DNA of 64,000 nucleotides, from the NCBI RefSeq assembly GCF_900198835.1, contig NZ_LT900021.1:248001-312000 (forward strand). The letters run 5' to 3'. Position numbers and translations under genes: made by a program. This DNA is from Thermococcus henrietii. GTDB taxonomy: Archaea; Methanobacteriota_B; Thermococci; Thermococcales; Thermococcaceae. Below, piece by piece: positions 32,799-34,430 of the stretch. Each line of letters begins with the position of its first letter. Within the stretch, counting starts at the first letter, position 1. The notes under the pieces are model-generated. The model did not search any database, was not told where the DNA came from, and saw only the letters and a list, made by a program, of their open reading frames with translations.

Positions 32799-32878
32799 GA
32801 TTATATAAGCGCGATTAGAGTTTTTATCTGGGAACGTTGATTTGGGTATATTTGGGTCCTTCTCCGTAGTACAGCACG

Positions 32879-33094
32879 GTGGTAAGCTTGGAGAATGTTA
32901 AGGGCGAAACCCTCGGGCTCGTACTGGCCGAGCTCCGCAGGATAAGGCGCGAACTCCAGAGGCTTGAGGACCTTTTGATGGAAGAGAGTTCCGAACTGAG
33001 CGAAGACGAAATTGACATTCTCCTAAAGGAAGCCAGAGACGAGTCCATTGAGTGGCTCAAACTTGAAGGCCTACCGAAGCAGGTCAAAAGTTAG
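32879..33094 (+). CDS. Small coiled-coil protein, possibly an orphan antitoxin
   Basis: 71 residues from GTG 32879, or 68 from TTG 32888, which has GGTGGT at good spacing. The sequence is almost all helix and charge: GLVLAELRRIRRELQRLEDL, then LLMEESSELSEDEIDILLKE. No toxin gene follows. Family not recognised; size and composition resemble antitoxins or small adaptor proteins. Box A-like TTTTTATC lies about 60 bases upstream. It neighbours the decayed small genes, so the segment may be the ruin of a mobile or toxin-antitoxin locus. Confidence 0.55.
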   Translation: MVSLENVKGETLGLVLAELRRIRRELQRLEDLLMEESSELSEDEIDILLKEARDESIEWLKLEGLPKQVKS

Positions 33095-33125
33095 GGTTCT
33101 CCGACTTGAGCAAAAGGGGCTCGGC

Positions 33126-33163
33126 TTATAAATGAATTTCCTCACTTTCCAAAAACTTTAAAT
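33126..33163 (+). promoter_or_regulatory. Promoter region of trpS and its leader peptide (two box A candidates)
   Basis: TTATAAA at 33126-33132 and CTTTAAAT at 33156-33163. The second is centred 27 bases before the leader ATG at 33187, exactly the archaeal TATA-to-start distance, so the leader ORF could be translated from a leaderless mRNA. Confidence 0.5.
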
Positions 33164-33186
33164 TCTCCTCTCCCCTTTCTCTTCCC

Positions 33187-33216
33187 ATGCTCGGTGGTCG
33201 TTTTTGGCTTTGGTGA
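33187..33216 (+). CDS. Trp-containing leader peptide MLGGRFWLW upstream of trpS
   Basis: ATG CTC GGT GGT CGT TTT TGG CTT TGG TGA: nine codons, two of the last three being Trp, ending 65 bases before the trpS start. Trp is the rarest residue, so two in a nine-codon frame directly before the tryptophanyl-tRNA synthetase gene is suggestive of ribosome-stalling control. Nearby complementary segments exist: GGTGGT (33193-33198) with ACCGCC (33229-33234), and TGGCT over the first Trp codon (33205-33209) with AGCCA (33239-33243). No ribosome site precedes it, fitting leaderless translation. No attenuator T-run is evident. Confidence 0.5.
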   Translation: MLGGRFWLW

Positions 33217-33254
33217 AGTTCCTCTCTTCTGCACCGCCTTAGCCACGAGTTTCG

Positions 33255-33268
33255 TTTCCACTGGAAAT
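33255..33268. repeat. ORB-core palindrome in the trpS leader
   Basis: TTTCCACTGGAAAT, non-coding, 14 bases before the trpS start and just upstream of its GGAGGTG ribosome site. In RNA it could fold as a small self-complementary element near the ribosome site. Confidence 0.6.
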
Positions 33269-33281
33269 GGAGGTGCTTTGA

Positions 33282-34430
33282 ATGGACGAGTTTAAGGTTA
33301 CCCCCTGGGACGTTGAAGGTTTAGTCGACTACGACAAGCTGATAGAGCAGTTCGGAACCAGCCCGCTGACTGACGAGCTGCTTGAGAAGACGGCAATGCT
33401 CACGAAGAGCGAACTGCCAATTTACTTCCGCAGGCGCTTCTTCTTCTCCCACAGGGACTACGATAAAATCTTGGCCGACTACGAGAGCGGAAGGGGCTTC
33501 TTCCTGTACACGGGAAGGGGCCCGAGCGGACCGATGCACATAGGCCACATAATCCCCTTCTACGCCACCAAGTGGCTCCAGGAGAAGTTTGGCGTCAACC
33601 TCTACATACAGATAACCGACGACGAGAAGTTCCTCTTCAAGAACCTCACCCTGGATGAAACCAAGCGCTGGGCCTACGAGAACATACTCGACATCATAGC
33701 GGTTGGCTTCGACCCCGACAAGACCTTCATCTTCCAGGACAGCGAGTTCACAAAGATTTACGAGATGGCCCTTCCGATAGCGAAGAAGATAAACTACTCG
33801 ATGGCCAAAGCGGTCTTCGGCTTCAACGAGCAGAGCAAGATTGGAATGATTTTCTACCCCGCCATACAGGCCGCACCGACCTTCTTCGAGAAGAAGCGCT
33901 GTTTAATTCCGGCAGCAATTGACCAGGACCCCTACTGGAGGCTCCAGAGGGACTTCGCCGAGAGCCTCGGCTACTACAAGACCGCCGCTTTGCACTCGAA
34001 GTTCGTTCCGCCGCTGACGGGCCTTGAGGGCAAGATGAGCGCCAGCAAACCTGAAACCGCCGTCTATCTCACCGACGACCCCGAGGAGGCTGGAAAGAAA
34101 ATCTGGAAGTTCGCCTTGACGGGCGGTCAGCCGACGCTCAAAGAGCAGAGGGAGAAGGGCGGAAACCCGGAGAAGTGTGTCGTCTTCAAGTGGCTGGAGA
34201 TTTTCTTCGAAGAGGACGACAAGAAGCTCATGGAGCGCTATCACGCGTGTAAAGCGGGAGAGCTGACCTGCGGTGAGTGCAAGCGCTACCTAATCAAGAA
34301 GGTTCAGGAGTTCCTGAAGGAGCACCAGAAGAAGAGGAAGGAGGCCGAGAAGAAGGTGGAGAAGTTCAAGTACACCGGCGAGCTGGCAAGGGAGCAGTGG
34401 GAGAAGGCGATTCCGGAGCCACTCCGCTAG
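33282..34430 (+). CDS. trpS: Tryptophanyl-tRNA synthetase
   Basis: Class I aminoacyl-tRNA synthetase charging tRNA-Trp, archaeal/eukaryotic type. The HIGH-like motif is GPMHIGHIIPF (about residue 85) and the KMSKS equivalent is KMSASKP (about 250). The N-terminal appended segment and AAIDQDPYWRLQRDFAESLG match the archaeal form. A Cys cluster, CKAGELTCGECKRY, near the C-terminus may bind zinc. 382 residues, normal length. GGAGGTG precedes ATG 33282. Its stop overlaps the convergent gene by four bases (CTAG). A Trp-containing mini-ORF lies in its leader. Confidence 0.97.
   Translation: MDEFKVTPWDVEGLVDYDKLIEQFGTSPLTDELLEKTAMLTKSELPIYFRRRFFFSHRDYDKILADYESGRGFFLYTGRGPSGPMHIGHIIPFYATKWLQEKFGVNLYIQITDDEKFLFKNLTLDETKRWAYENILDIIAVGFDPDKTFIFQDSEFTKIYEMALPIAKKINYSMAKAVFGFNEQSKIGMIFYPAIQAAPTFFEKKRCLIPAAIDQDPYWRLQRDFAESLGYYKTAALHSKFVPPLTGLEGKMSASKPETAVYLTDDPEEAGKKIWKFALTGGQPTLKEQREKGGNPEKCVVFKWLEIFFEEDDKKLMERYHACKAGELTCGECKRYLIKKVQEFLKEHQKKRKEAEKKVEKFKYTGELAREQWEKAIPEPLR

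Follow-up and report, generated by a model that had tools for sequence, protein, structure and literature searches.

A conserved Trp-codon leader upstream of trpS in Thermococcaceae as a candidate starvation-sensing +1 frameshift site

The window, i.e., the whole 64,000-nucleotide stretch analyzed here, is part of a Thermococcus-type genome of 2.16 Mb in one contig. It carries trpS, the gene for tryptophanyl-tRNA synthetase (TrpRS), preceded by a promoter and by a mini-ORF reading MLGGRFWLW (Table 1), the DNA of which, ATGCTCGGTGGTCGTTTTTGGCTTTGGTGA, is ATG CTC GGT GGT CGT TTT TGG CTT TGG TGA in codons. The original prediction had described this frame and its position correctly, with 65 nucleotides (nt) between the end of the mini-ORF and the trpS ATG at position 33282. 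It had also suggested a leaderless mini-ORF behind a box A. The TTTAAAT box occupies positions 33157 to 33163, with its first T 30 nt 5' of the mini-ORF ATG, and since this spacing of 29 to 30 nt is shared with relatives, a leaderless start is likely. The TAG at 33240 to 33242 lies in the trpS frame, and trpS is therefore not N-terminally extended in this genome.

Table 1. Features of the trpS leader (positions within the window)
Feature	Position	Strand	Basis or remark
BRE/TATA promoter CAAAAAC TTTAAAT	33150..33163	+	sequence; same 29-30 nt spacing in relatives
0-frame mini-ORF MLGGRFWLW (then stop), probably leaderless	33187..33216	+	in 83/83 Thermococcaceae genomes with upstream sequence
Internal Shine-Dalgarno-like GGTGGT	33193..33198	+	GGTGRT in all Thermococcaceae; fits GGDGRD
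3-nt spacer between SD-like element and shift codon	33199..33201	+	equals the +1 spacing reported for RF2 (PMC5009743)
P-site codon TTT of proposed slippery site YTT_T	33202..33204	+	TTT or CTT in relatives
Invariant Trp codon TGG, proposed hungry A-site codon	33205..33207	+	alignment of relatives
CTT TGG, second Trp codon and possible second YTT_TGG site	33208..33213	+	not universal
0-frame stop TGA, would end translation of unshifted ribosomes	33214..33216	+	
+1-frame ORF FGFGEVPLFCTALATSFVSTGNGGALNGRV (then stop)	33203..33295	+	open from shift site past trpS start; TAA 33293-33295
TAG closing the +2 frame (the trpS frame here)	33240..33242	+	sequence
Palindrome TTTCCACTGGAAA (ORB-like element of the original prediction)	33255..33267	+	just 5' of trpS SD
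Shine-Dalgarno (SD) GGAGGTG of trpS	33269..33275	+	sequence
trpS, tryptophanyl-tRNA synthetase, 382 aa	33282..34430	+	

The comparison covered every Thermococcaceae genome with readable trpS upstream sequence, i.e., 83 genomes of six genera; the script tables hold 84 rows including one duplicate (L007 = L116), and 82 distinct rows entered the column comparison. A mini-ORF was found at the equivalent place in 83/83 genomes, 29 to 30 nt from the TATA box and far beyond chance, and all of them have both the short ORF and its Trp codon, the two features for which the original prediction had proposed that relatives be searched. The core ATG..GGTGRT NNN YTT TGG is present in all 83. Among the 82 distinct rows, the ATG, GGTG, the last T of codon 4, the G of codon 5, the TTT of YTTT, and TGG never vary while neighboring bases do. 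In a pattern search, the exact motif adjoined trpS in 80 genomes and matched a handful of places elsewhere, and a reversed control pattern gave no matches. A further match, ATGACGGGTGATGGCTTTTGG, lies on the host contig at 1986506 to 1986526 on the minus strand, probably within another gene, and near-identical copies of it were seen in three other Thermococcus genomes.

Of the two Trp codons, the first never varies, and the second occurs in 64 of the 84 rows. This second codon often follows CTT or CCC, which are shift-prone before U; a shift there would lead into the same +1 frame and could make it a second shift site. In all relatives, the codon before the first TGG is only YTT, never TTC, ATT, or GTT, and the GGT of the core is never GGC. 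Neither restriction is explained by a reading at the peptide level, whereas an element acting at the level of the ribosome would explain both. Moreover, no more than four codons past the first Trp codon, the 0-frame always meets a stop, which may be any of the three stop codons, and the length of the frame differs by a codon or two, indicating that a short 0-frame is being kept. The comparison supports this part of the original prediction, in that a conserved, probably leaderless mini-ORF with an invariant first Trp codon stands where it could control trpS.

Past the YTT_T site, the +1 frame is open across the leader in 83/83 genomes. Measured from the first base of the trpS start codon, its end lies at 0 to +17 nt (once at +43), and in ten genomes its stop directly adjoins the trpS ATG on the 5' side; the +2 frame is shut before trpS in all 83. 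Dinucleotide shuffles gave probabilities of 1.4e-5 (10 clusters) to 1.7e-7 (14 clusters) for a +1 frame open in all clusters and of 3e-8 to 4e-11 for a 0-frame stop within four codons in all clusters, but these products are rough and optimistic, as related clusters were multiplied as independent. A codon-phase test detected no selection on the +1 frame at the peptide level, with 205, 210, and 208 substitutions at the three codon positions; the +1 frame is therefore kept open while its peptide sequence is not conserved, and we claim no functional +1 peptide. Two other readings of the region were rejected: a TTG start inside the core would lie in the +2 frame, which closes before trpS in all 83 genomes, and for Thermococcaceae the motif cannot simply be the TrpRS N terminus, since their +1 frame either terminates at trpS or runs in a different frame from the gene.

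A leader ORF that immediately precedes the gene of the matching synthetase and carries one invariant Trp codon, frequently joined by another, would also suit classical attenuation, in which a ribosome stalled at the Trp codons refolds the RNA and relieves either termination or sequestration of the trpS SD, with no frameshift involved. The original prediction had proposed such a switch between GGTGGT/ACCGCC and TGGCT/AGCCA. These segments are indeed present in the window but they are not conserved: all pairs of the first can form in only 27 of 82 relatives, 40 having no more than 3 of the 6 pairs, and all pairs of the second in 10 of 82. The suggestion that the palindrome TTTCCACTGGAAA forms the alternative fold fared no better, since the palindrome, found in most Thermococcus, is missing in Pyrococcus and other lineages, and the predicted structure largely melts at 80°C. 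Some pairing of the SD is predicted at 37°C in Thermococcus, but nearly all structure is predicted to be gone at 80°C, and ten leaders folded at both temperatures have no common SD-sequestering structure. Conserved mutually exclusive hairpins with a terminator were not found among the 82 relatives, and an Rfam scan of positions 32800 to 33400 with E values up to 1 gave no match, T-box included. Furthermore, attenuation leaves unexplained the YTT-only codon, the SD-like GGTGRT, the +1 frame open in 83/83 genomes, and the fused forms and start-less loci described below. Hence, we regard it as an unlikely account of this leader.

The trpS motif, in a less strict form, was found at 30 loci outside Thermococcaceae, in Korarchaeia and in Nitrososphaeria/Aigarchaeota-type archaea. 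It lies upstream of trpS in 17/17 Korarchaeia genomes with an archaeal-type TrpRS (53% identity or more) and at 13 further loci belonging to Geocrenenecus, Aigarchaeota, Caldarchaeum, Pelearchaeum, HR01, and one Thermoprotei metagenome-assembled genome (MAG); it was absent from 40 sampled trpS upstream regions of the Thermoproteota phylum, where TrpRS is more distant. All 30 loci have YTT_T, most have GGTGR or GGGGAT as the SD-like element, and this element is poor in L062 (GGTATA). The +1 frame is fused in frame into trpS in 24 of the 30 loci, and the other 6 resemble Thermococcus in that it stops at the trpS start. In the Korarchaeia L069/L417 (L069 is Candidatus Methanodesulfokora washburnensis) and L427, the trpS frame holds no ATG, GTG, or TTG from the upstream stop to the conserved TrpRS sequence, and the gene has no evident entry other than ATG GGG GAT CGT CTT TGG with a subsequent +1 shift. 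In these two Korarchaeia without a trpS start codon, only frameshifting would therefore yield TrpRS.

TrpRS of L022/L404 and of other Korarchaeia is 73 to 78% identical to that of the window, compared to near 60% for other archaea outside the family. This high identity suggests a transfer of trpS, perhaps along with its leader. In L062 (Caldarchaeum), about 130 to 45 nt 5' of trpS, the leader ORF ends in GILFWRWW before its stop, with three Trp in the last four residues; besides its weak SD-like element, this locus has TTT TGG, and the TGA of its +1 frame overlaps the TTG start of trpS.

The fused loci bring up the GTG within GGTGR as the true start codon, i.e., the start of a coupled leader ORF in Thermococcaceae and of TrpRS itself in the fused archaea, with the ATG mini-ORF being incidental or a decoy. 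This GTG stands in the +1 frame in all Thermococcaceae trpS leaders, it is a possible start codon in most trpS leaders altogether, a point to be set against frameshifting, and in L040, L043, L048, L053, L064, L414, and L415 no other in-frame start lies near the conserved domain. However, L069/L417 and L427 have neither this GTG nor any other start, which excludes the reading in at least two genomes, and L416 has GGGGAT instead of GGTG. An initiating GTG would also leave unexplained the invariant ATG, the TTT that is never TTC, and the 0-frame stop that is kept, and it cannot apply to the ileS and leuS leaders, where the +1 frame has no start codon near the site. Altogether, we consider this reading improbable.

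The same cassette was indeed found before two other synthetase genes when synthetase genes were inspected in six or seven Thermococcus genomes. The ileS leader reads ATGAGGGGGGAGTGT-TTT-ATC and the leuS leader ATGAGGGGGGAGTGT-CTT-CTC, so that the cassettes GGGGAG-TGT-TTT-ATC and GGGGAG-TGT-CTT-CTC keep the order of the trpS leader, namely, SD, 3 nt, YTT, and cognate codon, at a similar distance from the TATA box. Both occur across most Thermococcus genomes. Their +1 frames (26 to 46 codons) reach the synthetase start in 18/18 ileS regions, counting those with a parsed start position and leaving out 8 of 20 extra ileS regions, and in 25/25 leuS regions, whereas their 0-frames never do; the chance of a single +1 frame being open is about 0.33 for ileS and 0.20 for leuS. 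In the +1 frame, no start codon lies near the site (26/26 for ileS and 26/26 for leuS), and a stop lies 24 nt or less before it (again 26/26 and 26/26). In the host genome, the ileS leader (454849 to 454867, minus strand) encodes MRGECFILRSARFEA before its stop and the leuS leader (upstream of 755598, minus strand) encodes MPMRGECLLRWNHIGA before its stop, and in both the +1 frame ends at the synthetase start. In three genes, the A-site codon thus matches the amino acid that the synthetase handles, which is the strongest argument from sequence for tRNA charging as the sensed signal.

By inspection, with gene names inferred from family and N terminus, the cassette was not seen before the genes for ValRS, MetRS, SerRS, ProRS, ThrRS, GlyRS, HisRS, TyrRS, AspRS, PheS, and CysS. 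A probable AsnRS gene (PF00152 synthetase; L363, L364, and L365) is preceded by a conserved ORF, MPRLVRIESRLRVLSLWLNSLF and variants followed by a stop, with the Asn codon AAT; in L365, a TATA-like box precedes this ORF by about 28 nt. The ORF departs from the YTT cassette and could represent a leader of a different kind.

The change of the A-site codon with the synthetase also bears on a purely nucleotide-level element that would read as an ORF by accident, either a protein-binding site near the transcription start or a T-box-like RNA in which UUUGG pairs with the anticodon loop of tRNA(Trp). The third codon positions of the core are more constrained than conservation of the peptide needs, and UGG with its preceding U residues could pair with the anticodon loop CCAAA. 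Such an element would not, however, be expected to change its codon with the gene that follows, nor to keep a 5' ATG, an in-frame short stop, and an open +1 frame while the flanks diverge, and no Rfam family matched it. We hold this explanation to be very improbable.

We propose instead that the trpS leader is probably an autoregulatory, starvation-sensing programmed +1 frameshift site, a reading drawn from comparison of the sequences and one which the original prediction did not reach, having overlooked the RF2-like geometry, the conserved open +1 frame, the fused forms, and the ileS and leuS cassettes. In this model, the ribosome would start at the 5'-terminal AUG and read M-L-G-G-R-F, bringing UUU into the P site and UGG into the A site, while its anti-SD would pair with GGUGGU three nucleotides upstream. 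With plentiful Trp-tRNA(Trp), UGG would be read, translation would stop at the UGA two codons on, and trpS would be left to its own SD. With scarce Trp-tRNA, the A site would stay empty and the peptidyl-tRNA could slip from UUU to the overlapping +1 UUU, or from CUU to UUU in relatives with CUU, as in RF2. Phe tRNA has the anticodon GAA and Leu tRNA the anticodon GAG, and the finding of only YTT before TGG counts for frameshifting, as these are the codons from which both tRNAs can re-pair on UUU. The shifted ribosome would read GGC onward in the +1 frame, with a predicted trans-frame peptide MLGGRFGFGEVP... from the shift, cross the leader, and terminate shortly after the trpS start codon; there it could reinitiate or open the start region by translational coupling. 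In Thermococcaceae, this coupling at the overlapping stop and start could work by reinitiation, by freeing of the SD, or by shielding of the transcript. More TrpRS would then be made and charging would recover, i.e., a negative feedback. In Korarchaeia and several Nitrososphaeria/Aigarchaeota-type archaea, where the +1 frame is trpS itself, TrpRS would be the frameshift product, and in Thermococcus, ileS and leuS would use the same cassette, each with its own cognate codon. Because re-pairing from UUU to UUA would be poor, the ileS site may act by out-of-frame binding of the next tRNA. As a point against any need for frameshifting, trpS of Thermococcaceae has retained a good SD, from which translation could begin without help.

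The closest known system is bacterial RF2 (prfB), in which an SD 3 nt before CUU_U (in a minority UUU_U) and slow decoding at the A site drive +1 slippage (PMC5009743). The trpS leader resembles it in its CUU/UUU shift codon, which has U as the next base and an SD-like element 3 nt upstream, and this element also fits the ribosome-binding consensus GGDGRD of T. kodakarensis (PMC4247193). As in RF2, the product would restore the factor that decodes the A-site codon, and the +1 frame encodes or reaches the protein, with 24 fused loci, in which frameshifting would yield the gene's own product, and 83 plus 6 loci in which the frame ends at the trpS start. Unlike in RF2, the A-site codon is not UGA but a sense codon, UGG in every trpS locus (AUC for ileS and CUC for leuS), the sensed factor would be charged tRNA, and in Thermococcaceae the shift ORF is a short leader that would be coupled to the gene. 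The element would therefore act in the manner of RF2 without being an RF2 site.

Other systems share part of this logic. As in the E. coli trpL and pheL attenuators, a short leader ORF carries cognate codons and starvation would slow the leader ribosome, but conserved alternative hairpins or a terminator are lacking, and the output would be set by the reading frame after the hungry codon. As with T-box riboswitches, the charging of the cognate tRNA would control synthetase genes in cis, except that no T-box match was obtained and sensing here would be done by the ribosome on an ORF. Frameshifting in an archaeon has a precedent in S. solfataricus fucA1, the only demonstrated cellular archaeal case in a 2021 review (PMC8211752), although fucA1 uses a -1 shift on A_AAA_AAT and the trpS element would be +1 and regulatory. 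A 2016 review of frameshifting stated that there were no known examples of trans-frame products from hungry-codon frameshifting (PMC5009743). The transcriptome of T. kodakarensis revealed long 5' untranslated regions on 11 mRNAs for aminoacyl-tRNA functions, and its authors noted that attenuators or riboswitches in archaea had no in vivo support (PMC4247193). In the open-access literature, we found no report of this element or of such a use of starvation-induced frameshifting, which may be mentioned elsewhere.

Considering trpS, ileS, and leuS together, we lean toward hungry-codon +1 frameshifting as a general archaeal sensor of tRNA charging, built as SD-3nt-YTT-[cognate codon] at these three genes and perhaps at more, with Korarchaeia and their relatives making TrpRS only in this way. 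If true, this would provide an archaeal counterpart to T-box and RF2 autoregulation, and the start-site annotation of trpS would have to be corrected in several lineages. The element would likewise explain some of the long aminoacyl-tRNA leaders of T. kodakarensis, and its action can be put to a direct test in an organism amenable to genetics.
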